Shown here piece by piece: positions 1,519-61,292 of a stretch of DNA of 64,000 bases. Source of the DNA: Candidatus Electrothrix scaldis (lineage in GTDB: Bacteria; Desulfobacterota; Desulfobulbia; Desulfobulbales; Desulfobulbaceae). Location: positions 2,737,826-2,801,825 of the forward strand of contig CP138355.1 of assembly GCA_033584155.1 (NCBI GenBank), read 5' to 3'. The notes beneath the pieces are model-generated. The model did not search any database. It was not told the origin of the DNA and was given only the letters and a program-made list of their open reading frames with translations. A program made the position numbers and the translations under genes. Positions within the stretch are counted from its first letter, which is position 1; every line of letters starts with the position of its first letter.

Positions 1519-3033
1519 TTATATCATTGCCGGAACTGCATCACCATTCGGCATCCAGATATAGTTCCTGCACCGCTCCTTCCAAAAATGAAAGTTCAGG
1601 TATTTTTTCAGATCTCCGCTGGTTTTCAGCGCCCTTAGCTTCAGCACAGCATCCGCTGATTTCAGTCGCCAACGAGCACCGGTGAGATCCATACGATCCT
1701 TGACCAAGTGACGACAAGCTCCCTCTATTACACCGGTGGCGATAGGCAGTCCTTTCAAAAGAGCTTCTTCATATCTCAGTCGTTTCTGATTTTTCTTGAT
1801 ATAATTCGCAGCAGTATCCACAGGGATACGTTTATTTTCATCTAATTCTCTACGTGTAGCCGCACGACGCAATCCGCTCGCCACGCTTTGCGCGTTTCCT
1901 TTCAAAATCTCAAGCGTACGGCCCTGAACCCACTTTTCTCGTTTTTCAGCGTTCTCTTTCTCTGGATAAAGAGCATGAACCGCCTTCCACAGGTACTCGA
2001 CAACATGAATAAAATCCTGAATAACGGTTACTTTTACATCATGCTTCTCCGCCTGCACCTCGACCTGCCTGACCAGATCGGTCTGCCCGTCGATAAGAAC
2101 AACCCATTCCATTTCTTGTTCAGGGTCTCGTCGAAGCGCCTCCCGGAATCCCTGGTCAAGGGCGTTCCCCATATCTTCCGTAATCTCCGCCCAGACCCGC
2201 TTGTTTTTAATTTCTGGACGCTCCGGTGCGACTTCCCCGTCAATACTGAGAAGCTGTTCAGGAGTGCGCTGATAAGGGGATGTGTCATACACTGAGACAA
2301 CGGTCGCCATCCGCTTACGCCCCTTTTTCTCTCCGGGCTGAAGTCGGGCTTTTTTCTTATCCTGATCCTTTTCCGCTTGTTTTTTGGCGGCGGGACGCAG
2401 ATCCTGATTATGCATTGATACGCCCTTACCGTCCGCCGTAATGACTAAAATACTGCCCTTTACGGACGACAAGTCAAGGGGTTGCTCGTAAAATTCCTTG
2501 AAATCACGAACAATATCTGCGGATACTTCCTGAAGTTGACGTTTAGGCAGTATTCCGCCTCCCTGACGTTCCAGAAACTCCAATGTTTCGTCAAAAGAAG
2601 CGACTGCCGTCAAATGCGCTATTTCACTTCGTAGGCCGTGTGAATACTTGTCGGGCGGCAAATTCAACTCGGCATCCAGAGGAAAAACGCTGCCGACAAA
2701 CTGCCCGTAATAACCGATTCGTGACAGCTCGACCTCTCCGAAACGTGATTCAATTTTTCGAGTACAATCTGTTCTGCGACGATTGCGACGAATACCGTCT
2801 TCTCCGAGAACAAATTCTTTTTTCTCTTCTTCTGCGGAACGCTGAGACAGATATCCCTGCGCCAGCTGCCGTATAATTTCCTGTCCTTTCTGTTGAATAA
2901 CTGCTTCCACGTCTCCGAAAGAGGATGTGGAGAATTCTATACCGGATATATGGGACGCCAGTTTATCAAGTGCTTCAAAAGACGGAAGATAATGCTCAAT
3001 ATTGCTTTCCGTAAGGTGACAGGGGCTGTACAT
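1519..3033 (-). CDS. ISKra4-family transposase
   Basis: A 504-residue protein that looks full length. ATG at 3031-3033 is preceded by GGAGG at good spacing. The N-terminal half has a basic, cysteine-poor region (RRNRRRTDCTRKIESRFGEV). The middle has the DGKGVSM and VLIDGQTDLV segments expected of the DDE core, and the end has the GVIEGACRHLVKDRMDLTGARW block that is diagnostic of ISKra4-like transposases. The gene is intact, but its downstream terminus appears to abut the IS1380-like element, so mobility of the whole element is uncertain. The family assignment rests on recognised motifs, not on a search. Confidence 0.85.
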   Translation of the reverse strand: MYSPCHLTESNIEHYLPSFEALDKLASHISGIEFSTSSFGDVEAVIQQKGQEIIRQLAQGYLSQRSAEEEKKEFVLGEDGIRRNRRRTDCTRKIESRFGEVELSRIGYYGQFVGSVFPLDAELNLPPDKYSHGLRSEIAHLTAVASFDETLEFLERQGGGILPKRQLQEVSADIVRDFKEFYEQPLDLSSVKGSILVITADGKGVSMHNQDLRPAAKKQAEKDQDKKKARLQPGEKKGRKRMATVVSVYDTSPYQRTPEQLLSIDGEVAPERPEIKNKRVWAEITEDMGNALDQGFREALRRDPEQEMEWVVLIDGQTDLVRQVEVQAEKHDVKVTVIQDFIHVVEYLWKAVHALYPEKENAEKREKWVQGRTLEILKGNAQSVASGLRRAATRRELDENKRIPVDTAANYIKKNQKRLRYEEALLKGLPIATGVIEGACRHLVKDRMDLTGARWRLKSADAVLKLRALKTSGDLKKYLNFHFWKERCRNYIWMPNGDAVPAMI

Positions 3034-3045
3034 ATGGAACCTCCA

Positions 3046-3423
3046 AAACGCCGTGTAAAAAAATATCCATAATCTTTTACCGTATCATGAGGAGCAATTC
3101 AAGCAAATTGTAAACAATCTGTTATTCGCAATCGAAATTTTATCAATATGTTAACCTTGTATCAAAGGAGCCGCACCCTGCTCCTTTATTAATTTGTATT
3201 TTTTTGGGCGAGACTCGGGCAGATCGTTTATTCTGTTTAGACTTCATAAAAATAGTGACCCTCTTCTGTAGTAATTTTACCTTTAACATATTGAGGATTA
3301 TACTATTTTTACGATACCCTTTCAACTAATTGCAGGATTTAGGATTTATGTATTGGGAGTGTATTGTCAGTATGCGCAATAAAAAAAATCATTGTACAAT
3401 TCTCCTCTCAAAAAAAGTAGTGT
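3046..3423. other. AT-rich gene-poor stretch upstream of the ISKra4-like element
   Basis: No convincing gene. The part nearest 3046 should contain the outer end and promoter of the ISKra4-like element, but I could not pick out its terminal repeat. A 60-codon open frame on the minus strand (3143-3325) has no homology cue and is not called. Confidence 0.4.
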
Positions 3424-3606
3424 TTAACTTGCGCCGCACTGTACTAGTATTTGTGCAGAAAGGGACTCCACAACAAATTTACAGTCATTACCTGATATAT
3501 ATAACTCACTTTTGATTTTATCGAACCGTTGTTTAACTGTACCCAAAACGCGATCAATATCGTCCCTATCAAATATTGGTATGCACTCAGCATCGCTTAT
3601 ATCCAC
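3424..3606 (-). CDS. Small protein of unknown function
   Basis: A 60-residue frame with a GTG start (3604-3606) preceded by AAGGAG at workable spacing. The protein begins with an acidic segment (DISDAE) followed by an amphipathic helix-like stretch (DRVLGTVKQRFDKIKSELY) and ends in VQCGAS. I do not recognise a family. It could be a small regulator or the surviving start of a longer gene, since this region has suffered insertions. The good ribosome binding site is the main reason to list it. Confidence 0.3.
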   Translation of the reverse strand: MDISDAECIPIFDRDDIDRVLGTVKQRFDKIKSELYISGNDCKFVVESLSAQILVQCGAS

Positions 3607-3818
3607 AACATCTCCTTGTAAGGCATTATAAAATCAGCCTGTTCTTGCATAACACTGTATAATTTTTCAGATCATTAAGCGAAGCCTTCCCACATGTAAA
3701 AGCTCTACCTCAAAAAATTAAACCTCCTTTTCAACGAGTAAAAGCTCCTGACAAAGAAGCTAACAGAGCTTGCAAACATCTGAAGCCTTCTGCGCAACGA
3801 GTGTAGTTAATTTTTACT
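3607..3818. other. Gene-free stretch between small protein and 21-bp array
   Basis: AT-rich sequence in which I see no gene, tRNA or terminator. Confidence 0.4.
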
Positions 3819-4029
3819 CGTCTGTAGATAAACAACATTCTTTGCTTGTTTAACAACAAACATCTTTTGATAATCAACAGACAAGTTTTGATCGCTAACC
3901 AACGTTTCTTGTTTAACAACAGACGTTGGTTGATAATCAACAGACCTTTGTTGTCTATTTGCAAACGTTGTTGGATTAACAAACAAGGTCTCTTGATTGA
4001 CAAGGAACGTTGTTTACCTACGAACAAAC
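3819..4029. repeat. Degenerate 21-bp quasi-palindromic tandem array, about ten units
   Basis: Nine consecutive units of exactly 21 bp fill 3841-4029; a looser 22-base unit precedes them at 3819-3840. The consensus is close to GTTTGTTGATTAACAACAGAC, and each unit is nearly its own reverse complement. Units three apart look most alike (3841 with 3904, 3862 with 3925), suggesting an older 63-bp repeat. Translated on either strand it gives a basic, leucine-rich seven-residue pattern. The array lacks a ribosome binding site and is degenerate at all codon positions, so I read it as noncoding repeat rather than a gene. Confidence 0.8.
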
Positions 4030-4251
4030 ATCGTTAATCATTAAAGATACGTTGTATTGGCGGCCTCTATCCATAGAACGTTCATTCTTGCCGTACAACC
4101 GGAAAGCAAGCACGGTGGATTATACCGAACTGTTTAACTAATTTGCCAGACTAAACGTATTTTTTTCTCCCTGTCAAGCATTGTCCTTACTGCGCACGCA
4201 AGAAAAGCTACCGATCAAGATCAACTCAGCTGCCCCGACTATGTTGAAGAT
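4030..4251. other. Gene-free stretch after the 21-bp array
   Basis: No gene is seen. It separates the repeat array from the 3' end of the minus-strand cluster at 4252-7913. Confidence 0.4.
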
Positions 4252-21318: not shown

Positions 21319-21588
21319 ATGGCACAGAGTACAGCAACAAAACAAGAGATTATCGAAAAATTCGCAACCCACGAAGGTGATACCGGTTCCCCTGAGGTAC
21401 AGATTGCGCTGATTTCAGATCGTATTACCTATCTGACGGATCATTTCAAGACCCATGCAAAGGACCATCACTCACGTCGTGGTCTGCTGAAGCTGGTTGG
21501 TCAGCGTCGTAGCCTCTTGCAATACCTGAAGAAGAAAGATATCAATCGTTATCGTACCCTGATTCAGACTCTGGGTATCAGGAAGTAA
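21319..21588 (+). CDS. rpsO: 30S ribosomal protein S15
   Basis: 89 residues, the standard length. Contains [16 protein letters not shown] and [19 protein letters not shown]. The start is preceded by AGGAGATGCATA. The 159-base gap after truB could hold an S15 autoregulatory leader, but I could not assign a known fold. Confidence 0.97.
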
Positions 21589-21620
21589 GTTTCCTGTGGT
21601 TTTTTTGATGCAGTAAATAG

Positions 21621-21663
21621 AATTTTCCTGTTATACAGTCCTTGTGTAACAGGAAAATTTTTA
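21621..21663 (+). terminator. Intrinsic terminator after rpsO
   Basis: Stem of 13 bases (AATTTTCCTGTTA with TAACAGGAAAATT) and a 13-base loop, then a short T run. It separates rpsO from the accessory cassette and the pnp gene beyond it. Confidence 0.8.
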
Positions 21664-21712: not shown

Positions 21713-22528
21713 TTGACCCGTATTGTTTTTTGGAATGTAAATAACAGAGACTTGACGGATGCAGTGTGCGCCTTGGCAGTCTCAACAGCGGCTGATGTTC
21801 TTATTCTGAATGAAAATACGGTTTCCTCTTCTGCAACTCTTCACGCCTTGCAACGTAGCGTATCTGCTGATTTCTATTGTCCGACATTTAATTCTGAAAA
21901 GCGGTTCCATTGTTTCTGCCGCAATGCGTCACTTGATGTGTCCGAGATACACGAAGGATTTCGGACAAGTGTTAGAAAATTCAGGCTTGGTCATCAGAGA
22001 ATATTGCTGGTTTTGGTACATGGTCTTGATGTACGAAATTATGATTCCAATAAACGCTTATTGTTTACAGCCAAACTCGCTGATGAGATAAAGTTCATCA
22101 AAGAAGACAAGAAAAATAATAAGTTGGTTTTGCTTGGCGACTTCAATATGAATCCCTCTGATGATGGAATGAATGAAGCCGAAGGGTTAAACGCCATGAT
22201 GACGAAAGCATGTGCGGAAAAGAGAACTCGGGGGTATCTCACAAAAGATTACGATTTATATTACAATCCTATGTGGAGTCTTTTTGGTGACAATACAAAG
22301 GGGCCAGCCGGAACTATATATAACTCCAAAAGTCGTCAAGGTCCGTATGGTTGGAGTATATTCGATCAGGTTATCTTGCATCATTCGCTTATCCCCTTTT
22401 TTCAAGATGTGGAGATCGTCACCAAGGCAGGAAACCATTCCTTAATGGACAAGAATGGTCATCCAGACGCAAAGAATGCCTCGGATCATTTTCCAATTAT
22501 TGTCGATTTTCATGGAGGTCAACAATGA
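21713..22528 (+). CDS. Endonuclease/exonuclease/phosphatase (EEP) superfamily hydrolase
   Basis: 271 residues with a TTG start and no obvious ribosome binding site. The EEP metal and phosphate residues appear in the expected order: FWNVNN (N9/N10), LNEN (E34), LLGDFNMNPSDD (D144, N146), FDQ (D219) and the closing ASDHFPI (D259, H260). All key residues are present, so an active Mg-dependent phosphodiesterase or nuclease is likely; the substrate is unknown. The stop overlaps the next start by four bases (ATGA), so it is coupled with the 169-residue partner. The pair interrupts the normal rpsO-pnp arrangement, which marks it as accessory. Confidence 0.85.
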   Translation: MTRIVFWNVNNRDLTDAVCALAVSTAADVLILNENTVSSSATLHALQRSVSADFYCPTFNSEKRFHCFCRNASLDVSEIHEGFRTSVRKFRLGHQRILLVLVHGLDVRNYDSNKRLLFTAKLADEIKFIKEDKKNNKLVLLGDFNMNPSDDGMNEAEGLNAMMTKACAEKRTRGYLTKDYDLYYNPMWSLFGDNTKGPAGTIYNSKSRQGPYGWSIFDQVILHHSLIPFFQDVEIVTKAGNHSLMDKNGHPDAKNASDHFPIIVDFHGGQQ

Positions 22529-23034
22529 GTAGTTTTTGGCCGGAGGGTTTGTCAGTTAGTGATACACAATCACCGTATGAAATTTTGGAAAGTGCAAAGG
22601 AAGAGTGGGAAACTGCCAGCGATGGTGTCCTTACTCTTGTGTTGCAGGAATCTGAGCCTAAGGACGGCATCGAAACAATAACTGTTCATGCGAAGCATAT
22701 CCCTAGTAATCGTACCTCGACACTTTTTTCCGTAGCACATCGCCAGAAAGAGTTCTATCCTATTACAATTCAACCTAGAGAAAAGGAAGAACTTCCAGAT
22801 ATACTTAAAAAATCATATTACCAACCAGGAGCTGGAATAGGTGGAGTAGTTTTGGCTACAATTAGGGAGGGAAAGACGGTTACAAACAAATGGGTTTCCG
22901 ATACGCCATCAGAATTTCGTCAAAAATTGGCCGAAGCCTTTAATCTTTCCGTTGTGAAATCTGCTGTATTGAATCTGATATCCTCCCGAGGTGCGTTAGT
23001 GAAGGATGATAACGATATACAAAATAAAGTGTGA
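22525..23034 (+). CDS. Unknown partner of the EEP hydrolase
   Basis: 169 residues from ATG 22525 with GGAGG eight bases upstream. I do not recognise a family. The protein is soluble, with an acidic N-terminal third and a central strand-rich segment (ETITVHAKHIPS, then TSTLFSVAHRQKE). A glycine-rich stretch (YYQPGAGIGGVVLATI) and a helical C-terminus (SEFRQKLAEAFNLSVV) follow. There are no membrane helices and no obvious catalytic motif. The four-base overlap with the EEP gene suggests a fixed stoichiometry or a regulator/immunity role; this is inference. Confidence 0.75.
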   Translation: MSSFWPEGLSVSDTQSPYEILESAKEEWETASDGVLTLVLQESEPKDGIETITVHAKHIPSNRTSTLFSVAHRQKEFYPITIQPREKEELPDILKKSYYQPGAGIGGVVLATIREGKTVTNKWVSDTPSEFRQKLAEAFNLSVVKSAVLNLISSRGALVKDDNDIQNKV

Positions 23035-23060
23035 CCGTTTTGCGTGGGGGGATATAAAAT

Positions 23061-23336
23061 ATGCAAGAACGAACAATTAACATTTCTTTTCCGATAAAAG
23101 AGAATATCCTCTTATCTATTAAAGAGAGTAAAAAAGAATTCACCGATGAAATTCTTTATTTATCTGCCTTATATTTTTATAGAAAAAAGAGATTGTCATT
23201 AGGTAAAGCAGCAGAACTTGCAGGGTATAGTAGGTTGGGATTTATTGAGAAGTTGCAGAGGGAAAAGGAACATGTTTTTGATTATGATGAAGACGAGATT
23301 GATGAAATTTTTGAAGATGCTCTAAAAATTATATGA
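23061..23336 (+). CDS. UPF0175-family antitoxin
   Basis: 91 residues. The family core is seen as LYFYRKKRLSLGKAAELAGYSRLGFIEKL, a short helix-turn-helix-like segment in an otherwise strand-then-helix small protein. The C-terminus is very acidic (DYDEDEIDEIFED), typical of an antitoxin tail. It overlaps the following PIN-like gene by four bases. Inferred to neutralise that protein and to autoregulate the pair. Confidence 0.85.
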   Translation: MQERTINISFPIKENILLSIKESKKEFTDEILYLSALYFYRKKRLSLGKAAELAGYSRLGFIEKLQREKEHVFDYDEDEIDEIFEDALKII

Positions 23337-23809
23337 AAATTGTTTCAAACGCAACTCCAATCATTTCTTTGAGTTCGATCAATAGGATCGATATTCTGCA
23401 ACAAATCTTCGGTAAGGTAGTTGTTAGTCAAGCTGTTTATAACGAGGTTAAAGCAAAAAGACGTTACGGATACGATGATATCGATTCTCCGTTTATAGAA
23501 GTTACGTCAATTCAAGGTGTAGCGTACAGAGATCTCTTGCTCAGTCAGCTGGATGTTGGCGAGGCAGAGACAATTATTCTTGCGAAAGAAATTCATGCTG
23601 ATTTTGTGATCATTGATGAAAATATCGGCTACAGGATCGCAAAAAATTCAAACTTGCAGGTCATTCGAACGCTTTCTATCCTTTTGAAAGCGAAAGAAAA
23701 AGGGGTAATACCGGCAATAAAACCCTTGCTTGACGAAATGATAGCAAAGGGAAGGTGGTATTCAAAAAATGTCTATGAAACCTGCCTGCGCAAGTGCAAT
23801 GAGTTATAG
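23333..23809 (+). CDS. DUF3368-family PIN-like toxin
   Basis: 158 residues. Starts with the DUF3368 signature (VSNATPIISLSSI), where the first PIN acidic residue is replaced by asparagine as is common in this family. Then LDVGEAETIILAKE and ADFVIIDENIGYRIAKN provide the other acidic positions. Predicted RNase toxin of a type II toxin-antitoxin pair with the upstream UPF0175 protein. It is the last gene of the cassette before pnp. Confidence 0.85.
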   Translation: MKIVSNATPIISLSSINRIDILQQIFGKVVVSQAVYNEVKAKRRYGYDDIDSPFIEVTSIQGVAYRDLLLSQLDVGEAETIILAKEIHADFVIIDENIGYRIAKNSNLQVIRTLSILLKAKEKGVIPAIKPLLDEMIAKGRWYSKNVYETCLRKCNEL

Positions 23810-23938
23810 AAATATCAACAAACAATAATAATAAGATCCGACAGGCGGGTCTGAGAAGAAACACTGTCCTGAGCAGCGAACAGCGTTGTTCAAACAAATA
23901 TTAGTGCAGCCGGGACAGCTGAACGCAAAGGAGTTTGC

Positions 23939-26026
23939 ATGTATACAAAGAAAGAAGTCGAGATCGGAGGACGTACTCTGTCCTTTGAGACCGGCAAGAT
24001 GGCAAAACAGACCAGTGGTTCCGTTGTGGTGAGCTGCGGTGAGACTATGGTACTTGTGACTGTGGTTGCTGAAAAAGGTGCCAAAGACGTTGGCTTCCTG
24101 CCCTTGACCATCGAATACCAGGAGCGAATGTATGCTGCCGGACGCATTCCGGGCAATTATTTTCGTCGCGAAATTGGTCGTCCTTCGGAAAAAGAGGTAT
24201 TGACCTGCCGACTCATCGACCGTCCTTTGCGTCCGCTTTTTCCCAAGGGATATATGTCTGAGACCCAGCTGATCGCCACAGTTTTTTCAGCAGATCAGGA
24301 GCTTGATCCAGATATTCTGGCCATGAATGGAGCTTCTTTTGCGCTGACCCTTTCTGATGTACCTTGGGAAGGTCCTGTAGCAGCAGCCAGAGTGGGATAC
24401 ATCGATGGAGAGTATGTCCTGAATCCAACTGTGACCCAGCTGGAAAAATCCGCTATGAATCTGATTGTTGCCGGAACCGAGTCTGCTGTGGTTATGGTGG
24501 AAGGACGCACTGGTGAGCTGAGCGAGGACGTGGTCCTTGAAGCGATTTTTTTCGCCCATCAGGAAATTCAGCCGCTTATTGCGCTCCAGAAGGTTTTGCG
24601 GGAAGAAGTAGGAAAAGAAAAACGTGAAGTTATTGTTCCTCAGGTGAACGAGCCTCTGAAGGCCAAGGTGGAAGAGCTGGCGGCTGCTGGCATGGAAGAG
24701 CTGGTCACTATTGCTGGTAAAATAGAGCGCAATGCCCGTTATGACAAGCTGAAAGATGAGGTGCTGGCAGGCCTTGATGAGGAACTGTACGAGAGCGAAG
24801 GCGAGGTGTTTAATCTCCTGGGCACATATAAGAAAAATGTCATGCGGGATAGAATCGTCAGTAAGGGTTTGCGTCTGGATGGGCGGAAGTTTGATGAGGT
24901 TCGCCCTATCGACTGTGAGGTCGGTATCCTGCCTAAGGCACACGGATCTGCGCTCTTTACCCGTGGTGAGACCCAGGCAATGGTCATCAGTACTTTAGGA
25001 TCTGAGCGTGATGAGTTGCATGTGGAAGGTCTGACTGGTGATAACTATCGCCGTTTTATGCTTCATTATAATTTCCCTCCATTCTGCGTGGGAGAAGCTC
25101 GCATGATGCGTGGCCCCAGCCGTCGCGATATCGGACATGGTACGCTGGGTCGTCGTGGCGTTGAGGCTGTGTTGCCGGATCCTGCAGACTTTCCTTACAC
25201 CATCCGGATAGCCTCTGAGATTCTGGAATCCAACGGTTCTTCTTCTATGGCAACTGTCTGCGGTGCAAGTCTTGCCCTGATGGATGCCGGTGTGCCGATT
25301 AAGGCGCCGGTTTCTGGTGTTGCTATGGGTCTGATCAAAGAAGGAGACAAGGTTGTTGTCCTGACCGATATTCTTGGTGATGAGGATCATCTCGGCGATA
25401 TGGACTTCAAGGTCGTAGGAACGGCTGATGGAATCTCCTCGCTTCAGATGGATATCAAAATTGATGGCGTAGATCGGGAGATTATGGGCAGCGCCTTGGC
25501 ACAGGCTAAAGCGGGCCGTCTCCATATCCTCGGAAAAATGGAAGAGGCTATCGGTATTCCACGCCAGAACGTTGCTGATCATGCGCCCAAATATGTCACC
25601 ATAAAGATCAATCAGGATAAGATTCGTGACATCATCGGCCCAGGAGGTAAGGTTATTCGCGAGATGACGGCAGAGTTTGATTCCAAGATTGATGTAGATG
25701 ATGACGGGACCATTAAGATTTTCTCTAAGAGCACAGAGTCGGCAGAAGCGCTGGTTGCCCATATTGAGGGCATGACCGCTATGCCGGAAATTGGCAAGGT
25801 CTATAATGGTCTGGTCAAGACCATTAAGGATTTCGGAGCATTCGTGGAGATCCTTCCCGGTACAGACGGTATGGTCCATATCTCTGAGCTGTCTGCGGAA
25901 CGAGTCAATAAGGTAACGGATGTCCTGCAGGAAGGCGAGCGGGTCAAAGTGAAGGTCATTGATATTGACGGACGTGGACGTATCCGCCTGAGCCGTAAGG
26001 CTGCCCTGGAAGAAAGCAAGGAATAA
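23939..26026 (+). CDS. pnp: Polyribonucleotide nucleotidyltransferase (PNPase)
   Basis: 695 residues, full length, with AAGGAG upstream of ATG. Two RNase-PH domains are joined by a helical domain. The catalytic core [12 protein letters not shown] is in the second, with GDRxx-like [16 protein letters not shown] ahead of it. The KH domain has [13 protein letters not shown], and an S1 domain ([18 protein letters not shown]) closes the protein. Phosphorolytic 3'-5' exoribonuclease of the degradosome. In most relatives it directly follows rpsO; here the EEP and toxin-antitoxin cassette lies between. Confidence 0.97.
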
Positions 26027-51596: not shown

Positions 51597-52439
51597 ATGG
51601 ACAAGGTGCAGACAGCACAGACAGCACAGGCAACATTGGTGATGGGGATTCTGAATGTCACCCCGGATTCCTTTTCTGATGGGGGCAAATTCACTGGCTT
51701 CACTGGCAAGCAGGCCTTGACGGATCAGATCAAGAAGATGCTTGCTGATGGCGTGGATATCATCGATATCGGTGGAGAATCCACCCGGCCCTTTGCCGAG
51801 CCAGTGTCTGAGCAGGACGAACTGGACAGGGTACTCCCGGCAATTCAGGCCGTGCGTACACTCTCGGCGGCAGTCCCTGTTTCCATTGATACCACCAAGG
51901 CCAAAGTAGCAGCAGCTGCCCTTGCGCATGGGGCCACCATCATTAATGATATATCGGCCCTGAGGCAGGACCCGGAGATGATCAGTGTTGCCCGCTCCTG
52001 CGAGGTCCCGATTATTATTATGCATATGCAGGGGACTCCCGGAGATATGCAGATCGCTCCCCAATATGAGGATGTTGTGGCTGAGATCTGCGATTTCTTT
52101 CGTGAGAGGACAAGCTGGATGGAGGGCCAGGGGATAGCCCGGCAGCGCATCATCCTGGATCCTGGTGTGGGCTTCGGCAAGACCCTGGAGCATAATCTTG
52201 CCATCCTGCGTAATGTGCGCGCTTTTAAGGAGCTCGGCTATCCGGTTCTGATCGGCCATTCCCGTAAATCCTTTATGGAGAAGCTGCTCGGTCTGTCGGT
52301 GAGCGAGCGGGATTGCCCCACCGCAATTATTTCCGCTTTGTGCGCGCAGCAGGGCGCGGATATCCTGCGGGTGCATGATGTGGCGAAGACTGTAGCGGCC
52401 CTGCGGCTCTCTGAAGAGCTTGCGCTGGCCCCGGTGTAA
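51597..52439 (+). CDS. folP: Dihydropteroate synthase
   Basis: 280 residues from ATG 51597. An upstream ATG at 51573 lies inside the terminator stem and is rejected; GGGG precedes 51597. DHPS motifs: MGILNVTPDSFSDGG, DIIDIGGESTRP, INDISAL, MHMQGTPGDMQ, DPGVGFGKTLEHN and GHSRKSF. Condenses p-aminobenzoate with the pterin diphosphate in folate synthesis. A short in-frame repeat near the start (CAGACAGCA twice) gives QTAQTAQ. Confidence 0.94.
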   Translation: MDKVQTAQTAQATLVMGILNVTPDSFSDGGKFTGFTGKQALTDQIKKMLADGVDIIDIGGESTRPFAEPVSEQDELDRVLPAIQAVRTLSAAVPVSIDTTKAKVAAAALAHGATIINDISALRQDPEMISVARSCEVPIIIMHMQGTPGDMQIAPQYEDVVAEICDFFRERTSWMEGQGIARQRIILDPGVGFGKTLEHNLAILRNVRAFKELGYPVLIGHSRKSFMEKLLGLSVSERDCPTAIISALCAQQGADILRVHDVAKTVAALRLSEELALAPV

Positions 52440-52461
52440 AACTGATATTTCGGGAGGCTCT

Positions 52462-53139
52462 ATGATTGTTTCAACCGAATTCCTTATCTATGTTGCCCTG
52501 TATCGCCTGACTGTTCTGACCGTAGGGGCGCTCTCTATTTATCTCGGCTTTCGTCTTTTTACCCGCTTAGGTGAGGAGCAGCAGAGCAAGACAGGGACAA
52601 CCCTGTTGGATACCAAGATATGGACGATCAGGCTCAGTACAACCAATTTCTGGCCTGGTGTCTTTCTGGTGCTGTTCGGTACTGGGTTGATCGGGGTGAT
52701 GCTCTGGCAGGGGGCGCCGCAGCTCACCCTGGAGGATATCCAGGAGGCAACTGTTCAGAGCGCTGTTGAGCATAAAGATGTCGAGGCCAAGGATAATGCC
52801 ATGCTGAATCTCGGGCTCTGTACAGAACATGTGCTTCCCCCGGAGGTGCAGGAGCGCCTGAACCAGGAATTGGTCAAGCTCAAGCAGCCTGGCATGACCC
52901 TGGAGGCCGCAGCCGAGCATCTGGGACATATCGCCCGTATCTGGCATATGCAGGGGCGGGGCATTGAGGCCCTGGCTATGGCCCGCTTGGCCTATCTCTA
53001 CGGACCGGCAAAGGACAGGGCCACCAATCTTGCCCTGTATGCGGAGCTGCTGGTGGTCAACGGCAGGGAGCTGGAGGCGGTAGAGGCCCATAAGGATCTG
53101 GTGAATATGGAGAGCGAGGCCCCGGAAGAGGCGGAGTAA
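52462..53139 (+). CDS. Membrane protein with C-terminal helical-repeat-like region
   Basis: 225 residues from ATG 52462 with GGGAGG upstream. Two membrane helices (about 9-31 and 64-86) are followed by a soluble helical region (about 95-215) with alternating alanine/leucine positions reminiscent of TPR repeats (EALAMARLAYLYGPAKDRATNLALYAELL). I cannot name the family. Begins 22 bases after folP and is probably in its operon. Confidence 0.65.
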   Translation: MIVSTEFLIYVALYRLTVLTVGALSIYLGFRLFTRLGEEQQSKTGTTLLDTKIWTIRLSTTNFWPGVFLVLFGTGLIGVMLWQGAPQLTLEDIQEATVQSAVEHKDVEAKDNAMLNLGLCTEHVLPPEVQERLNQELVKLKQPGMTLEAAAEHLGHIARIWHMQGRGIEALAMARLAYLYGPAKDRATNLALYAELLVVNGRELEAVEAHKDLVNMESEAPEEAE

Positions 53140-53159
53140 GGGGGGCAGTCCTCCTGTGT

Positions 53160-53250
53160 TTGTTCTTATTTCCTCCTCATCTCCTCCTTATTTCCTCCTT
53201 ATCTCTTCCTCATCACGTCTTAATATACCCCTCCGTGTTCGGAGGGGTAC
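53160..53250. repeat. Short direct repeats and a perfect hairpin
   Basis: At 53168-53215, three to four degenerate copies of a 10-12-base TTTCCTCCTTAT-like unit. At 53226-53249, a perfect ten-base stem TACCCCTCCG with CGGAGGGGTA around TGTT, then a partial third copy of the arm. It lies between the convergent genes at 53139 and 53289 and may end both transcripts, although no T tract follows. Confidence 0.55.
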
Positions 53251-53288
53251 GCGGAGGGGTACGTCTGAATTGTCCTACTTGTATTACC

Positions 53289-56141
53289 CTACTTGTTTAA
53301 GAGGAGAATGCTGAGTATGGCCGGGATGAAGCCCGTAGACGTGCCGCTTGTCCCGGTTCCGGTCAGGGTGAAGGTATGCTCCAGGTCCTCGCTGGCATCA
53401 TTGGCGATAGTGACCGTGGCTGTGCGGGTACCTGTTGCAGAGGGACTAAACTGGATGGTCACTGAGGAGGTGCGGTGCGCTCCTACAGGAGAAGAGGGCT
53501 GCTCCGTTACCGTGAAGTCATCCGCATTGGTCCCGCTGATACTAACCAGGTCAGGGGCGCCGCTCAGGTTAAGCTCTGCCTCACCAGTATTCTTGATGGT
53601 AAAGACCTTGGCGCTGGTATTCCCCGTATCCACCTCACCGAAATCATAGCTGCCGCTACTGTCCGCCAGTTCGTACAAACCGCGCTTGACCTGGATTGCT
53701 GGCTCGTCCGTATCATCATCTGAATCATGCAGGTCATCCGGGCTGTTGCCGGAAAGCGTGCAGGTACCTGTGCAGGTCCAGGCTGTATAGGTGTCTGTGG
53801 GTTTTGTATCCGAACTCTGGTCTATATCCACCCCACCGCCGCTCACCCCGGCTGTATTGCCACTTATGTTGAGGTCAGTTCCAGTGACGCTGGTATTGCT
53901 GTTGTAGATAGCAATGGCCCCTCCCTTCATGCCTGCTGTGTTGCCGGTGAACTGGTCGCTGTCAAACGAGAGAGTGGTGTAAGTCAGCTGGGAGGCCTTG
54001 TCATCCACATACACTGCTCCACCATTGCCGTCGCTGGAGTTGTACTCAAAGGTGTTGCCCGCAAAGACCGGGTTAGCGCCGTAGTCCACAAACAGGGCCC
54101 CGCCTCGATCCGTGGCCGTATTGCTGCTGAAGCGAGATCCGGAAACCGTCGGGGTTCCACCCAGGCGGAAGAGCATGGCCCCGCCCCGTGCTGCGCTGTT
54201 ATTGCTAAACTCGCAGTTATCAAACGTGGGAGAGGTGTAGGAGTACCCGCACACGGCCCCGCCCTCCACAGCATAGTTATCCTGAAAGGTGCAGTTCATC
54301 ACAGTGGGTGCGTTCTCGTCATAGATGAGCATTCCTCCGCCCCGCCCGTGGTAGAGTTCCCCGTCCGCATAGCCGTCCTGGATCGTAAAGCCATCCAGCA
54401 GGGCATTCGATGCGCCAAAGAGCACATGGTAGGAGTTGTCCGTGCTGTCCCCGGTCGTGCCGATGTCTCCACTCAGGATAGTGAGGTAGGTGGACGGGTC
54501 CCGGCCCGCAGGCGAGCTCTCTGTTCCCTGAAAGCCGCCCAGGAGGTTCACCCCTTGTTTCATGACAAAGGCCTCTGCCCGGTCCGTGCCGCTGGTGGGG
54601 TAGTAGGTGCCCTCAGCCACCCAGATCTCCTGGCCTGCCTTCACATTGCTCAAGGCCGTGCTCAGTTCCGTGTAGGCATTGGCCCAGCTGGTGCCGGTGT
54701 TTGCCCCGCTTGTTGCGTCTGCATCCACATAGACTGTTCCGCTGCCGCTACCTGTCGTAACTGTACTGTAGGGATAGTCTGCATAGGTGCGGAAGCTGCT
54801 GCTGTCGCTGTCAAAGGTGCTGATCCAGGTGCTGAGTTCCGTGCTCAGATCCCGGTCAGGGTCCCAGCCCACGTCAGGATCAGTGGTCCCGAAGTCCTCA
54901 TCCAGATAGCTGGTTGCTGTCAGGCTGCCGTCTGTCTCTTCCACGGTGGAGGCACTGTCCCAGGCAGCAGCTGAGTCGTGCCAGCTGTCGATGGAGGTAG
55001 GGGAAGAGGCAGATGCATTACCAAGCACCAGGGAGGAGTAGAGATGGGGCTCATTGCATTTCATGGGCTGACTATCTTTCTGCGGTGAGGTATAGGTGCC
55101 CTGGTACAGGGAAGCACCTACATCGTCGGAGCTGTTGTCCACTATAGTGGTGTAGACCAGACGGGAATTGGAGGACCCGTCGCTGATCAGGGCTGTGCCC
55201 CGCTGGGCTGTGTTGTCGGCAAACAGGGCATTGATGAAGTAGGCATTGCAGCCCATGTCGTTGTATACCGCACCACCTTTGCTTGTGCAATGGTTGTGCA
55301 GGAACTGCACGTTGACAAAGATCGGTGAGGTATAGAAGTCATCATTCACAGCCCCGCCCCGGCCAGTGCCGATGTTCTCCTGGAAGATGACATTGTCGAA
55401 GTACGGGTCATCTGCACCGTCCGTAATTGTCCCGGTGTCAAAGTCATAGCCAGCCACGGCCATATTGTAGACAGCCCCGCCCTTGCCCGCATAGTTATAG
55501 CGGAAGGTGGTGTTGCGCACCACAGTGTCCGCATGCACGTTGTACAGGCCGCCGCCTGCTGTGCATTGGATGTCGGTCACGATGCGGAGGATCTCCTGGT
55601 CACCGCTGCTACCGTTGCTTGCTGTGATCAGGGAGCCGTCCTCCGGGCAGGTCTCACCCGGAGCCAGCACGGTGTAGCCGTATTCCACGATGAAGCCGTC
55701 CAGGGTAGCACCTACGGCGCCGCGCAGGACATGCAGGGAGTTGTCCGTATCATCCTCGGGCACACCAATGGCCCCGCTGAGGATGGTTGCATTATTCTCC
55801 CAGTCCCGCTCCGAGACCGCGCTTTCCGTGCCTGCAAAGCCTCCATACAGGGTCACGCCTTCGACCAGATCAAAGGCGGTGAAGCGCTGGGCCACGGTGG
55901 GGCTGGATGTGGCAATGGGGTAGTAGGTGCCTTCTGCCACCCAGATCTCATCCCCGCTGGCTGCTGCGGTCAGGGCATCCTGGAGGTCAGTGTAGGCCGT
56001 GGCCCAGGAGCTGCCGTCCTCAGTGCCGCTGCTGTTGTCCAGGTCCACATAGAGGGTGTCACTGCGGGCCACAGATTCCTGGGCAAGCCATCCCAGGAGA
56101 AAAGTCAATACGATGATGGTACCTCTGTCAGGGCGATACAT
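53289..56141 (-). CDS. Secreted right-handed beta-helix protein with ASH-like C-terminal domain
   Basis: 950 residues with AAGGAGG upstream and a signal peptide (about 1-25). Two tandem copies of a domain begin TLYVDLDNSSGTEDGSSWAT (about 29) and VYVDADATSGANTGTSWANA (about 487). Each has an EIWVAEGTYYP motif and a beta-helix of short glycine- and asparagine-rich coils (NNSAARGGAMLFRLGGTPTV). A domain of the choice-of-anchor D/HYDIN type (about 820-930; FGEVDTGNTSAKVFTIKNTG) follows. It ends in a serine/glycine/threonine linker and a hydrophobic tail (FIPAILSILLL), like a cell-surface sorting signal. Likely a surface adhesin or carbohydrate-binding protein; enzyme activity is not shown. Confidence 0.82.
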   Translation of the reverse strand: MYRPDRGTIIVLTFLLGWLAQESVARSDTLYVDLDNSSGTEDGSSWATAYTDLQDALTAAASGDEIWVAEGTYYPIATSSPTVAQRFTAFDLVEGVTLYGGFAGTESAVSERDWENNATILSGAIGVPEDDTDNSLHVLRGAVGATLDGFIVEYGYTVLAPGETCPEDGSLITASNGSSGDQEILRIVTDIQCTAGGGLYNVHADTVVRNTTFRYNYAGKGGAVYNMAVAGYDFDTGTITDGADDPYFDNVIFQENIGTGRGGAVNDDFYTSPIFVNVQFLHNHCTSKGGAVYNDMGCNAYFINALFADNTAQRGTALISDGSSNSRLVYTTIVDNSSDDVGASLYQGTYTSPQKDSQPMKCNEPHLYSSLVLGNASASSPTSIDSWHDSAAAWDSASTVEETDGSLTATSYLDEDFGTTDPDVGWDPDRDLSTELSTWISTFDSDSSSFRTYADYPYSTVTTGSGSGTVYVDADATSGANTGTSWANAYTELSTALSNVKAGQEIWVAEGTYYPTSGTDRAEAFVMKQGVNLLGGFQGTESSPAGRDPSTYLTILSGDIGTTGDSTDNSYHVLFGASNALLDGFTIQDGYADGELYHGRGGGMLIYDENAPTVMNCTFQDNYAVEGGAVCGYSYTSPTFDNCEFSNNSAARGGAMLFRLGGTPTVSGSRFSSNTATDRGGALFVDYGANPVFAGNTFEYNSSDGNGGAVYVDDKASQLTYTTLSFDSDQFTGNTAGMKGGAIAIYNSNTSVTGTDLNISGNTAGVSGGGVDIDQSSDTKPTDTYTAWTCTGTCTLSGNSPDDLHDSDDDTDEPAIQVKRGLYELADSSGSYDFGEVDTGNTSAKVFTIKNTGEAELNLSGAPDLVSISGTNADDFTVTEQPSSPVGAHRTSSVTIQFSPSATGTRTATVTIANDASEDLEHTFTLTGTGTSGTSTGFIPAILSILLLNK

Positions 56142-56364
56142 GGGGGCCTCCTTCTGGTGCTGTTAATGGTTCGGTCCGGCTTTTTGTAGCATCTCTTTGA
56201 TTATGACACGGGAAGATGACAGGACAGGGGGGAGGAAGATGAAAAGATTGTCATGTGGAGGGAGGTGCCTGTTTTTTGCGCCTGCTGTGTTGTTTGTTGA
56301 TGAATGGGCAAGGCATGCCATGATGGCCTCGTTGTTATTCAACAACTGGCAGGCTGATGCTGTT

Positions 56365-56479
56365 GGTTCCACTATGGTGGAGCCTGGATTTACACCATAG
56401 TGGAATCTTAGTTTGCACTATAGTGTAACTGGGATTTCCACTGTAGTGGAACCGGTGCTTGCACTGTAGTGGAAAGGGT
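56365..56479. repeat. Five-unit 23-bp tandem array with palindromic cores
   Basis: The core CACTATAGTG (or CACTGTAGTG, or CACCATAGTG) starts at 56393, 56416, 56439 and 56462, with a variant at 56370; all are exactly 23 bases apart. Each unit carries TTTCCACTATAGTGGAA or a close variant. No spacer variation of CRISPR type is present. Confidence 0.8.
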
Positions 56480-56649
56480 AGTTTTACTCTGCTGTGAGCC
56501 GGGTTCATAGGAGGCCAGGAGGATGACGCATAGGTTCCTGTGGGGTGTTTGCCTGCACGGGCACGGCACACCGTGCCCCTACGCCTTTACCTCAATCCCC
56601 TGCAGAATGGCGTGGATGATGGCAGCCTCTGCCTTTCATCGGAATACCC

Positions 56650-56763
56650 GTCCCGTAGGGACGTTGCGAACATAGCCCAGGGTTTTAACCCTGGGTGTGG
56701 TGTAATCTGCCTCCCGGCCCGGTGTTGAAACACCGGGCTAATACCGTGCTGTCCCTCCGGGAC
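56650..56763. repeat. Paired-hairpin REP-like element
   Basis: Outer palindromes GTCCCGTAGGGAC (56650-56662) and GTCCCTCCGGGAC (56751-56763) flank two perfect hairpins: CCCAGGG with CCCTGGG (56676-56695) and CCCGGTG with CACCGGG (56718-56737). The symmetrical layout suggests a REP-type or non-autonomous mobile element. Confidence 0.6.
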
Positions 56764-56818
56764 GCTGGTGCGAATCCGCTGCCTGTAGGGGCGATTCGCG
56801 AATCGCCCCTATGCCGCC

Positions 56819-57094
56819 CCATCCACCCGTTGCAGGGGCGAATCCCCGTGTTCGCCCTGATATGTCGGTTGCCGTAACGGGCAGGCACAGGGACCTGCCC
56901 CTACGCCGCCCCATCCACCCGTTGTAGGGGCGAATCCCCGTGTTCGCCCTGATATGTCGGTTGCCGTAACGGGCAGGCACGGGGACCTGCCCCTACGCCA
57001 CCCCATCCACCCGTTGTAGGGGCGAATCCCCGTGTTCGCCCTGATATGCCGATTGCCGTAACGGGCAGGCACAGGGACCTGCCCCTACCCACCC
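56819..57094. repeat. Three tandem 92-bp units of a hairpin element
   Basis: Units at 56819-56910, 56911-57002 and 57003-57094, differing from each other at only about three to six positions. Each contains GTAGGGGCGAATCCCCGTGT near its start and ACCTGCCCCTAC near its end, giving GTAGGGGC/GCCCCTAC inverted ends. Related single copies lie at 60689-60762 and 62390-62450. A partial relative is at 56786-56815. Confidence 0.85.
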
Positions 57095-57098
57095 CCGA

Positions 57099-60000
57099 TC
57101 ATTCCCCGCCCGCATACGGCGCAAAGGCCCGCTCCGCCTTACTGCGGTATGCAGCAGCCCGGCTCTCATCGCCCTGCTGCTCGGCAATGTAGGCCAGCAG
57201 CCCGTAGGTCGTCCATATCTGCGCTGCTGCCGGGTCAAGGGTTTCCTTAATGGCCAGCCCTTCCTCAGCCAGGCTGCGGGCCTCGTCCAGACGGGCCGGG
57301 TCATCTTTCAGCAGATCAGCAAGGTTGTTGAGGGTGCGGGCGGTATTGGGCCGGTCTTCCGCAGTTTGGAAGGTTGTCAATGCCTTGCTATACCATTGCT
57401 CCGCCTCTGCCTTGCGATCTGTGTACTCACAGACCTGGGCGAGCTGCTGCCAGCTTGCGCCAGCCCCATTGCTGCCAGCCAGCAGCCCTTGTTCCACCCT
57501 TAACTGGGCTGCTTTCCGATATGCATCATTTGCCGCCTCCCACTGCTTTGCGAGCTGATAAACTATACCTAGATTATGCCAAACTATAGCTTCCTCTCTA
57601 GGTTCATTCATGCTTTGCCAAAAGATCAAGGTATCCTTGTATCGTTCCTCTGCCTCAGCCAGCTCACCCTGTATCCGGGCCAGGGTGCCGAGCCGGCCTA
57701 TAATTACCGCCATAGCCCGTATATCACCCAGCTCCTCATCAATCTTCAAGGCGGCTTGATAGGCTATCCTGGCCTCGTCATATAGTCTCTGATCACGAAG
57801 CACATCAGCCATATCCGTCCAGGCAGAGCTGGTCTGCCGCTGCACCCCGTCGTCCTGCTCCAACCGAGCCAATTCCTCCAGCTCCTGCCGGTAAAGCTGC
57901 TCCGTCTGCCCAAGCTGGCCTTGGGATTTAAAGCAGCGGCCCAGCATGTGCAGGGTGATGCAGCGGTTATAGCTGGGAGTCTCCTCCAGTCCGGCGAGGA
58001 TGTCGGCAAAGACCTGTGCTGCTGCTCCGGGCTGACCGTTCTGCCAAAGCTGCTCGCCCTTATTGCTTTGGGCAAGAAACCATGCCTGTGACCCCACTGC
58101 GCCGCCTGCTTTACTGGCCGCTTCGGTCAGTTCCTCAATGTCCCGCCGCATTCCGAAGTCACGCAGAAACCATTTAACTGTAGCAGCAAAGTCCATCCCC
58201 TCTTCAGCCCTGCCTGTCTGCAAGGCGGTATGGACCGCCCGGAGCAGGTTAGGCAGCTCGTATTGAACGCTGGTGCAGGCAGCATGGGGATTTGTCTCGT
58301 CCAGCTTATACAGCTCCCAAGATAGCTTGTAATATTCCTGCCAGTAGCCTTGCAGCAGCGTGTCCTGCTCCTCCTTATCCAATCGTTGCCACAGGGCCGG
58401 GGCCAGGGTGGGGTGGAAGCGGAGGAAGATCAGGTCACTCTCCATCACTCGCTCGGCCTGCATAAGCCCGGCAATAAGCAGAGAGATGCGCAGTTCCTGC
58501 CAGTTCGCCTCCTTGAGGCCGGTCACATCCTCTATCATCGCTTCCAAACATCCCCCCTGAAACACCCCCAACCGAGGCAGCCACTGCCTGCACTGCTCGG
58601 GCAGTTGCTCAAGGGACAGCTCCAGAGAGGCAAGCAGGGAGCGGTCTGCCTGATTCACCGGCTGCTCCTCCAGCAGGGCCTCCAGTCGTTCCCCCACATC
58701 TGCCGGGCCGCGCTGCTTGAGCTGTTGCGCCAGCAGGGAGATGGACAGGGGATGAAAGCCCACCTTGGCGAACAGCCTGATCAGCACATCACGGCGGGGT
58801 CGCTTGAACCTGCTCTTGGGCGGCAGACGGCGCAGGCTGTCAAACCAGTCCACGCTATCGCCCGCTTGCAGGCCCTGCAAGGCAAGGCTTTGGTGGCTGA
58901 AGTCACCGGCCAGGGGATAGCCGGGATGGTTGCAATCCGGTTGCCGGGAGGTGAGCAGCACCCGACTGGCCCCGGCCTCGGACCAGGACAGGGCCGCATC
59001 CAGCAGCTCGCCCAGGATGTTGTCAGCAGCCAAGGTCTCCAGGTTGTCCAGGATCAGCAGGGTGGGAGTCTCTGCCAGCGATGCCCGGGCCGCATCCGCA
59101 TCCAGCAGGCTTTGCTCAAAGGTCGTGCTCATGGTCGCAACGGCCATACTCACCGGGTCGCTGCCCTGATAGGCGGCATAGCTGATCATGCAGACCCGTT
59201 GAAACAGGCCAGTGCGCAGGAGCCAGCGGCCTGCTTCCAGGGCTAAGGCGGTCTTGCCCTGTCCCCCAAAGCCGGTGATGGAGAAGCGGCGGCAGTCCTC
59301 CACCCCAAAGGCCCGTTCGATCCGCCATAACTCCCTGCTGCGCCCGAAAAAGCCGGAGGGCTGCGGCTTGGGCAGATTGTGGAGCAGGGCAGGGCCGGAT
59401 TCCGGGCTGTCATCGGCCTCGCTCCTGAGCAGGGCCATATCCGCCCCGCTCTGATACAGGGCAGGCAGGAACCAGTCATACAGGTTCAGCCTGAACTCCT
59501 CGGCCAGTCCTGCCCCGCGCAGACGGATACCGCGTTCCGGGTTAAAGAGCAGGGCGTGCCGGGCCTCGTCCAGGGACCGGGCCACTGTCGCGCCTTCAAA
59601 CAGGCTGGCGTAGAACTCGGCAAAGAGCTGCTCTGCCGTGCTGACCAGCACGCTGTGGGTCATGGCGATGACCGCAGGAATGCCCGCATGGACCAGCCGG
59701 GCCGCACAGCCGCTCATGGGGTCTTTGCTGTCCATTGCTGCGGACTGACAGGCGGAAAGCACCACCAGGCCTGCATGGTTCTGATGGAGCAGCGAGCCGA
59801 ACTTCTCCGCCGCAACCCGGTCCTTGTTGCCCTCCTCGTCCTCAAACAGGAGCCAGCCCTGCTGCCTGTCCGCAGCTGCCGTATCCCCCTTGACGGTCTC
59901 GCCTTTCCCGCCTGTGTCTGCCTCGCTGTCTTTGCCAAACACCCCGTGCCCGTCAAAGTGGATGATGTCCACCCTGGGCAGCCGGGGATCACGCAAGCGT

Positions 60001-60638
60001 TTGCGCAGGGCCTCCAGGGTCGGGGGCCGGAGAAACTCCACCTCCACCCGTTGCTGCTTCTGGTCCGCCAGGGCAGTCAGCACGGCATCGGCATCACGGC
60101 GGGGATCAATAAAGCTGGCCCCGTCTGGTCTGCTGACAATAAAGAGGAGATGCAGATTGGGCTTGACTTCACGAGGCTTGGGGCTGCGGCCCTGTCCCGC
60201 GCTTGGCAGGCCCCGCCGGATGGAGATAGGCGGCTGCTCGTTGACAAGAAAGGTGCCGCCCGGCGTATGGAGCAGCTCCCAGGGCAGGGTCAGCACGGCA
60301 GGATGGTCAGCAGCAATACTGAGCACCCGGCCTTCCTCGTTGCTCTCCAGAAAGCGGTCAAAGAGCTTGGCCGCCTTGCGCTCACCTTCCAGGGCAGCCT
60401 CAAACAGGGCGGTTCCCCAGAGCGGTAGCTGCTCCTGCACGGCAAGGGCGCGGGCATCATCGGGCTCGGCAGCATAGCTGGTGCCGTAGTCCTCCAGATA
60501 CCAGCGCAGTTCGTTCAGGTCTTCTTCCTTAAGCGGACTGGTGAACTCGGCTGGCGGGGTAGGGGGTGCCTTGTCGCTGGACAGGGAGACCATAACGTGG
60601 TCGGCATCGGTGAAGGTCAGTTGCAGTTCTATGGACAT
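57099..60638 (-). CDS. CHAT protease - STAND-type NTPase - TPR protein
   Basis: 1179 residues from ATG 60636-60638, chosen for GGAGGAACC upstream. A longer frame reaches 60746 but only adds residues encoded by the repeat element. Domain order: an N-terminal region of unknown fold, then a CHAT protease (about 130-385) with catalytic His in HFDGHG (H231) and Cys in LSACQSA (C297). Next is an NTPase with GFGGQGKT (K462), LLILDNLETL and a helical module, then TPR-type repeats from about 840 to the end. CHAT-NTPase-TPR proteins are linked to regulated proteolysis and abortive-infection-like defence. The neighbouring small membrane protein (60767-61189) may be its partner or substrate. Confidence 0.9.
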   Translation of the reverse strand: MSIELQLTFTDADHVMVSLSSDKAPPTPPAEFTSPLKEEDLNELRWYLEDYGTSYAAEPDDARALAVQEQLPLWGTALFEAALEGERKAAKLFDRFLESNEEGRVLSIAADHPAVLTLPWELLHTPGGTFLVNEQPPISIRRGLPSAGQGRSPKPREVKPNLHLLFIVSRPDGASFIDPRRDADAVLTALADQKQQRVEVEFLRPPTLEALRKRLRDPRLPRVDIIHFDGHGVFGKDSEADTGGKGETVKGDTAAADRQQGWLLFEDEEGNKDRVAAEKFGSLLHQNHAGLVVLSACQSAAMDSKDPMSGCAARLVHAGIPAVIAMTHSVLVSTAEQLFAEFYASLFEGATVARSLDEARHALLFNPERGIRLRGAGLAEEFRLNLYDWFLPALYQSGADMALLRSEADDSPESGPALLHNLPKPQPSGFFGRSRELWRIERAFGVEDCRRFSITGFGGQGKTALALEAGRWLLRTGLFQRVCMISYAAYQGSDPVSMAVATMSTTFEQSLLDADAARASLAETPTLLILDNLETLAADNILGELLDAALSWSEAGASRVLLTSRQPDCNHPGYPLAGDFSHQSLALQGLQAGDSVDWFDSLRRLPPKSRFKRPRRDVLIRLFAKVGFHPLSISLLAQQLKQRGPADVGERLEALLEEQPVNQADRSLLASLELSLEQLPEQCRQWLPRLGVFQGGCLEAMIEDVTGLKEANWQELRISLLIAGLMQAERVMESDLIFLRFHPTLAPALWQRLDKEEQDTLLQGYWQEYYKLSWELYKLDETNPHAACTSVQYELPNLLRAVHTALQTGRAEEGMDFAATVKWFLRDFGMRRDIEELTEAASKAGGAVGSQAWFLAQSNKGEQLWQNGQPGAAAQVFADILAGLEETPSYNRCITLHMLGRCFKSQGQLGQTEQLYRQELEELARLEQDDGVQRQTSSAWTDMADVLRDQRLYDEARIAYQAALKIDEELGDIRAMAVIIGRLGTLARIQGELAEAEERYKDTLIFWQSMNEPREEAIVWHNLGIVYQLAKQWEAANDAYRKAAQLRVEQGLLAGSNGAGASWQQLAQVCEYTDRKAEAEQWYSKALTTFQTAEDRPNTARTLNNLADLLKDDPARLDEARSLAEEGLAIKETLDPAAAQIWTTYGLLAYIAEQQGDESRAAAYRSKAERAFAPYAGGE

Positions 60639-60688
60639 GGAGGTTCCTCCGGTGACAGGGTGATGGTGAGTGTGATGGTAAGTGCGGG

Positions 60689-60762
60689 GTAGGGGCGAAT
60701 CCCTGTGTTCGCCCTGTTTCTGGATTGTTACGCGATGGGCAGGCACAGGGGCCTGCCCCTAC
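60689..60762. repeat. Single copy of the GTAGGGGC hairpin element
   Basis: GTAGGGGCGAATCCCTGTGT begins at 60689 and CCTGCCCCTAC ends at 60762. It matches the flanks of the 92-bp unit but the middle is different. It lies in the gap between the CHAT gene and the small membrane-protein gene. Confidence 0.8.
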
Positions 60763-60766
60763 GGGA

Positions 60767-61189: not shown

Positions 61190-61292
61190 GGTGTTGGGCT
61201 CCTTATGCTCTGAAGGGAATGTATCTGCTGCGCTGTCTCATTAACGGCTCAGGATTATAACAGAACAGGACAGTACAGCCCAAGGGAAAGTT

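Follow-up and report, generated by a model that had tools for sequence, protein, structure and literature searches.

Two overlapping genes in a 64,000-nucleotide stretch of Candidatus Electrothrix scaldis DNA (the window) encode a hydrolase of the EEP superfamily and a small partner protein. We put at roughly 0.55 the probability that this pair is a mobile, phage-associated nuclease-plus-regulator module whose likeliest benefit is immunity against competing phages. Underlying this reading are intact catalytic residues, near-constant pairing, co-inheritance of the two genes, a patchy distribution and relatives in phage hotspots, each of which was observed. The pair occurs in 12 phyla (by record title) as well as in many phage contigs, and it is nameless in the libraries that we searched. 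If it does confer immunity, the defence catalogue would gain an EEP effector together with a new family of partner proteins.

The pair lies between rpsO and pnp

The EEP gene (positions 21713..22528 of the window, plus strand) begins with TTG and encodes 271 amino acids. The partner gene (22525..23034, plus strand; 169 amino acids) starts inside the EEP stop codon, as the original prediction had stated, so that the EEP stop and the partner's ATG share the four bases ATGA. Together the two genes form a compact 1.3-kb module. A longer partner frame from 22351 lacks support, because the aligned relatives begin at the ATG. On the left, the insertion site is bounded by an open reading frame that we take from its sequence to be rpsO, encoding ribosomal protein S15 (21319..21588, plus strand), and on the right by one that we likewise take to be pnp, encoding polynucleotide phosphorylase (23939..26026, plus strand), which is present in all eight genomes of the genus. 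A terminator-like hairpin of 20 pairs followed by a T-rich tail (21619..21661, plus strand) lies after rpsO, and the pair starts just past it; by eye, a similar stretch is found in both empty and occupied sites. The G+C content falls to 39% in 22001–24000, against 47% and 51% in the flanking 2-kb bins. Elsewhere in the window, G+C climbs from about 48% to 56–63% across 52001–64000. No phage gene adjoins the window's own pair, whose site is the rpsO/pnp gap and not the gpA–portal region of a P2-like prophage.

Comparison within the genus revealed that this site is variably occupied. The pair is present between rpsO and pnp in four of eight genomes (G000, G005, G003 and G001), and the site is empty in the other four (G002, G004, G006 and G007), where rpsO adjoins pnp with 334–341 bases between them. 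Counting this one, the genus holds four versions of the pair: at rpsO|pnp, after glyQ (G001 and G002), between nuoH and nuoI (G002) and near ispF (G003), the last four gene names being our presumed identities. In the EEP tree the four versions branch separately, with the placement of the nuo version unsure. The nuoH–nuoI insertion was found only in G002, and the other six genomes with a nuoH match have nuoI within about 280 bases. This divergent pair (L013 954–2268, G002:C92) splits the complex I gene cluster. After glyQ (L245 and L243, about 2386–3275), G001 and G002 have the EEP pair, G000 and G005 have other sequence of about 890 bases, and G007 holds about 43 bases; this may be a second insertion hot site. 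The pair at L016 has the same lengths and starts as that at L010 of G002. Outside the genus, the nearest relative of the window's version is a viral-contig locus (L098), on whose contig two putative head genes had no PHROGs match. Cable bacteria thus take up such cassettes between core genes.

Two further genes stand behind the pair: a UPF0175 antitoxin-like gene (23061..23336, plus strand; PF03683, E 1.5e-21) and a DUF3368 PIN-type toxin-like gene (23333..23809, plus strand; PF11848, E 1.6e-15; PADLOC candidate PDC-S70, E 3.4e-48). We rejected them as parts of the system. Among the four occupied sites they are intact only in G000; they are absent in G001 and G003 and decayed in G005, and a remnant persists in the empty-site genome G002, the decay and the remnant being read from the bases by eye. 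This toxin–antitoxin-type pair is a separate local insertion behind the EEP pair, neighbouring the module and lying outside it. The original prediction had drawn part of its case for defence from these adjoining genes, and that argument fails because they were inserted separately.

The EEP protein has an intact catalytic site

The EEP protein is an intact member of the EEP superfamily and a predicted metal-dependent phosphodiesterase. It matched PF03372 with an E-value of 1.6e-8 and 35 bits, above the Pfam gathering cut-off of 24.5 bits. Residues N8, E34, H103, D143, N145, D218 and S257-D258-H259 are invariant among 67 aligned relatives, which bears out the earlier claim that all catalytic residues are present; we presume which residues are catalytic (the N, E, D-x-N, D and S-D-H set) from ExoIII and APE1. 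The same 67-row alignment yielded a family signature, YNPMW...GT.Y....W..FDQV, with three or four residues between Y and W. The gene is divided between two frames in 5 of 84 loci, by decay or by sequencing error.

An AlphaFold2 model of the protein (pLDDT 94) has an ExoIII/APE-like fold and aligned with EEP structures with Z scores of 18.1–19.6 over 201–225 residues among the best 50 matches listed. The nearest structures, among the matches listed, were EEPD1, neutral sphingomyelinase, NExo, LINE-1 endonuclease, Tdp2, DNase I, Mth212 and APE1. Searching the PDB by sequence returned Mth212 and NExo chains with E-values of 2.5e-7 to 8.6e-5. The substrate cannot be read from the fold, because DNA-repair enzymes, Tdp2, sphingomyelinase and nocturnin are equally near. 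Against the NCBIfam ExoIII equivalog TIGR00633, the protein scored 33.2 bits, far under the cut-off of 99.05.

EEP and partner form one recurrent unit

A partner homologue lies directly downstream of the EEP gene in 79 of 84 loci, starting within about 150 bases of the EEP stop; the partner HMM behind this count was refined on the same loci, and its seed had already recovered all 89 frames at the first pass. The 84 loci comprise 80 of 163 confirmed relatives from genome contigs, found by a scan with the EEP alignment, and four from viral contigs. Four of the five misses reach a contig end and one is decayed. The contig ends within a partner-like start in L019 and inside the EEP gene in L058; L084 has 175 bases downstream, with a partner-like beginning (MSDIKNLWPEE) and then divergent sequence; L048 has 134 bases downstream, which hold no partner start; and L071 has an EEP gene in two frames with a partner-like remnant. 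Among viral contigs of a divergent gammaproteobacterial branch (the gamma branch), the partner directly follows the EEP gene in 43 of 44 loci, the exception (L192) stopping at the EEP gene; here the partner alignment was built by position behind the EEP gene, and its HMM found 40 frames in the 44 loci in the first pass. Scans of viral contigs with the partner alignment gave no usable pattern.

The sets of 84 and 44 loci both contain near-copies; 77 pairs were kept for trees, and 35 of the 44 viral loci are non-redundant. Across the 77 pairs the EEP and partner trees agree (Spearman 0.64, Pearson 0.73), and none of 2000 permutations gave a value as high (maximum 0.27). A third conserved gene was sought among 1462 genes in the 84 loci and rejected, the largest third family occurring in 12 loci at most, at a median distance of 6.6 kb. 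That EEP and partner constitute one recurrent two-gene unit, as had been proposed, is well supported by the pairing counts and the concordant trees. The probability that two functionally unlinked genes travel together by chance is close to nil: the pairing recurs across loci that record titles assign to 12 phyla as well as across phage contigs, and we found no point in favour of chance.

Departures from strict pairing were all in one direction. No EEP gene lacked a partner where the intact sequence behind it was long enough to hold a complete further gene. Solitary partners were found five times in four genomes (G366 twice, G619, G622 and G1013), the EEP gene having been sought in fetched stretches of 2.8 to 16 kb. 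The partner is therefore mostly, not always, with the EEP gene, the reverse of the pattern that the original prediction had regarded as damaging to it. The two solitary partners of G366 (L138 4622–5089 and L139 8100–8540) are closely similar and stand directly behind chemoreceptor-like genes. A further locus, L137, holds a partner fragment and no EEP gene, and L018 has a single EEP gene with three partner paralogues in tandem behind it (2771–4175).

The lack of any clear case of an EEP gene alone, the solitary partners and the triple partner in L018 together make the asymmetry expected of a toxin and its antidote. The pair might accordingly be a toxin–antitoxin-like addiction pair with no defence role, the EEP protein being a toxic nuclease and the partner an antidote, so that cells losing the pair would be killed. 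We think this unlikely, although other toxin–antitoxin-type genes at the same sites (in the window, and a presumed RelE-like gene in L022, L023 and L025) also speak for it. Against it, the EEP effector gene comes first in the pair, whereas in most type II pairs the effector gene is not first. Nor would addiction exclude defence; many toxin–antitoxin pairs act against phages.

The same pairing data, 79 of 84 and 43 of 44, would also fit a partner that serves as a required activating or targeting subunit, with an EEP protein that is inactive alone and a complex that attacks invading or recombining DNA. This is a possible account, not a probable one, and the existence of solitary partners counts against it. 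Partner-alone loci without clear EEP-alone loci slightly favour restraint by the partner over activation.

The partner matches no family in the libraries searched

The earlier statement that the partner matches no known family held: searches with the window's protein gave no match in Pfam (E up to 10) or, with E up to 1, in PADLOC and NCBIfam. A profile built from 82 partners had no credible match in the PDB (best E 0.22), and the 82 partners had only weak matches to Pfam and PHROGs, each in one or two members. The structural model (pLDDT 71.5) is unreliable at residues 88–120. Its predicted order is a helix, four strands and two helices, with a near-invariant YP preceding strand 4, in which P79 is invariant and Y78 nearly so. 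This predicted order, together with a YP before strand 4, would fit UBC/UEV/RWD-type domains. Structural comparison gave a best Z of 7.2, under the tool's guide value of 8, and rows for Mediator, Csm1, kinetochore and UEV entries, all with Z below 8, which we take to be RWD/UBC-like. Foldseek gave best E-values of 0.21 in the PDB and 0.012 in a viral library, none convincing among the folds listed. Unlike UBC/UEV/RWD-type domains, the partner has no conserved Cys column and no Pfam or PDB sequence match to them.

A minority of partners carry a distinctive C terminus. The motif [DE][DE][ILV]PF ends 6 of 105 partners, against none of the 1309 remaining genes across the loci (Fisher p 1.5e-7). 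Near-copies are present in the set of 105, but the six tailed partners contain none and come from distant hosts. These DDIPF-type tailed partners are those of L161, L162, L028, L059, L097 and L023. In the available portion of PMC5872125, the conserved tail of SSB is given as DDDIPF. The motif in this minority of partners could dock on replication proteins, which would suit a partner that activates or targets the EEP protein. Against such a role, the tail occurs in 0 of 33 distinct gamma-branch phage partners, and the window's partner also lacks it.

The pair is patchily distributed across phyla

Judged from record titles, the 77 rows of the tree cover 12 phyla, and 13 rows carry no phylum. The EEP tree is mostly grouped by phylum: where the phylum of both rows is known, a row and its nearest neighbour share it in 48 of 60 cases. 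With 12 groups, the minimum would be 11 label changes, and the tree requires 20; bins may include foreign contigs. The grouping and the excess of label changes suggest that the pair may have spread by descent as well as by transfer.

Within the groups surveyed the distribution is patchy: 2 of 297, 3 of 148, 3 of 247 and 2 of 244 genomes were positive, with the survey centres included and two likely chance matches set aside. The unselected surveys, minus their centres, contained the pair in three genomes (G746, G747 and G833) and the partner only in two (G366 and G1013). G1231, with a partial partner match and no EEP gene in a 1990-base locus, was included among the positive genomes and classed as neither paired nor solitary. 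Matches in G231 and G658 sit in long unrelated frames and were taken as chance. In Methylococcales, copies at L022, L023 and L025 share a site near genes that we presume to be carB/greA-like, with a toxin gene that is presumably RelE-like. The best reading of the distribution is that the EEP–partner pair is a mobile accessory module, moving between chromosomes, temperate phages and small plasmids.

Relatives reside in phages and plasmids

We searched phage and plasmid records by tblastn. A mainstream pair (L051) as query gave no match among 72,556 plasmids, and among 50,697 phage records it gave three partial matches, all to EEP; the window's partner as query gave no match among the plasmid and phage records. 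The three partial matches led to the gamma branch. Alignment of profiles with hhalign showed that the mainstream and gamma branches are homologous, both for EEP (probability 99.8%, E 3.4e-30) and for the partner (96.2%, E 2.4e-9), each E-value being that of one single comparison.

In the gamma branch, an Acinetobacter phage has the gene order integrase, EEP, partner, FRG. Plasmid contexts were taken from 6 of 33 plasmid records with a gamma-branch EEP gene. A 3.5-kb Klebsiella plasmid and a 3.1-kb E. coli plasmid carry the pair and little else that was listed, carriage that would also suit an addiction pair. In Acinetobacter plasmids the pair closely follows an Abi gene, which in the first plasmid matched AbiD with E 6.3e-67, and in a Photobacterium plasmid the pair is near integrases. 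A DNA-level search of complete E. coli genomes, in which more distant copies could be missed, gave no match for two gamma-branch pairs; this may be why E. coli-based screens did not find the pair.

P2-type gpA, portal or terminase genes adjoin the pair in 11 of 35 non-redundant viral loci, an uncontrolled count. In three of the 35 the pair is flanked by gpA and portal on opposite sides, and four have an integrase within 1 kb. The viral loci stop no farther than 6 kb from the match, often closer, and these context counts are lower bounds. Pfam tallies for 128 flanking viral genes gave portal 7, terminase 5, D12 methylase 5, integrase 4 and gpA 2; the integrase, gpA, portal and terminase labels come from these tallies, PHROGs (ten genes), phmmer from members and our own reading. 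Elsewhere, a pair lies between a phage repressor and an integrase (L095), with a partner identical to that of Spirosoma arboris (L074), and another lies upstream of terminase and portal (L097). In two phage contigs, genes that look alike directly precede the pair (L211 5094–5933 and L213 1240–2181), and the Pfam tally includes predicted pPIWI-associating nuclease domains in two flanking viral genes, perhaps the same two. The accessible part of PMC9122126 describes the P2 region between gpA and the portal gene gpQ as a hotspot of anti-phage genes. Residence in prophage hotspots that this part of PMC9122126 presents as sites of defence genes is a further point against addiction with no defence role.

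Chromosomal neighbours resemble housekeeping genes

PADLOC contained no match for the window's pair, nor for the EEP protein and partner of L053 or the EEP protein of L011; among gamma-branch proteins it gave one weak match, of a partner to PtuB (E 0.015). We compared the neighbours of 24 chromosomal copies, all on long contigs, with control genes 50–60 kb away. The 133 neighbours matched 7 PADLOC families with 8 member-hits (E up to 1e-10). The 124 control genes matched 89 PADLOC families, which is a family count rather than a gene count, and methyltransferase and SIR2 models, each with a single member, made up most of the best 25 of these 89. The comparison speaks neither for nor against a defence-island location of the chromosomal copies. 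Genes longer than 800 amino acids had been dropped before the scan (11 of 144 case genes and 8 of 132 control genes), and both arms relied on a crude gene caller that yields false open reading frames in high-GC loci. The commonest Pfam families near the 24 copies, judged from the best 25 of 104, are housekeeping families.

These neighbours could reflect a host repair or metabolic role, in which the EEP protein would act on a nucleotide, a lipid or a damaged DNA end, and the nearness of its fold to enzymes with such varied substrates would agree with this. We consider such a role improbable. The housekeeping neighbours change from site to site, so that there is no conserved housekeeping context of the kind that the original prediction had weighed against itself, and the patchy distribution, the empty sites in sister species and the carriage by phages all argue against it, as does a score far below the ExoIII equivalog cut-off. 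The proposal of a defence module, for its part, survives with a changed foundation: its toxin–antitoxin adjacency argument is lost, and the phage and plasmid contexts of relatives (P2-type gpA/portal, integrase, AbiD and FRG) support it indirectly. We found no paper on the pair or the partner among the matches listed in open full texts, and a description could still exist.

A model for the pair and its relation to known systems

In the reading that we favour, the effector would be the EEP protein, a divalent-metal phosphodiesterase of ExoIII/APE fold that probably cuts DNA. The partner would be a dedicated regulator, most likely binding the EEP protein and keeping it off in healthy cells. When a phage or other replicating element takes over, the partner would release or aim the EEP protein, and the carrier would gain immunity to competing phages, including superinfection immunity where the pair is prophage-borne. 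A more elaborate scheme, which we regard as a long shot, would make the pair a cross-phylum class of prophage-borne immunity in which an E2/RWD-like scaffold holds the EEP nuclease and some scaffolds bear SSB-tail decoys; a phage capturing the replication proteins that bind SSB tails would then free the nuclease.

Relatives of the pair occupy the same gpA-to-portal region as the P2 exclusion genes old and tin and the other P2-hotspot systems described in the available part of PMC9122126. Unlike those systems, a pair of this kind is not mentioned in that part of the source.

With the EEP superfamily nucleases (PF03372; ExoIII, APE1, Mth212 and NExo), the window's EEP protein has its fold and catalytic set in common. 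It differs from them in that its family has a signature of its own, falls below the ExoIII equivalog cut-offs and is nearly always paired with a partner gene. Type II toxin–antitoxin pairs and EsaD/EsaG-type nuclease–immunity pairs are also among the closest known systems. No sequence relation to either type is shown, the gene order differs, and inhibition in the EEP pair is predicted; an EsaD–EsaG structure entry gave a weak row against the partner model (Z 3.7, 51 aligned). What the EEP pair shares with both types is the combination of a nuclease, here a predicted one, with a small dedicated partner.
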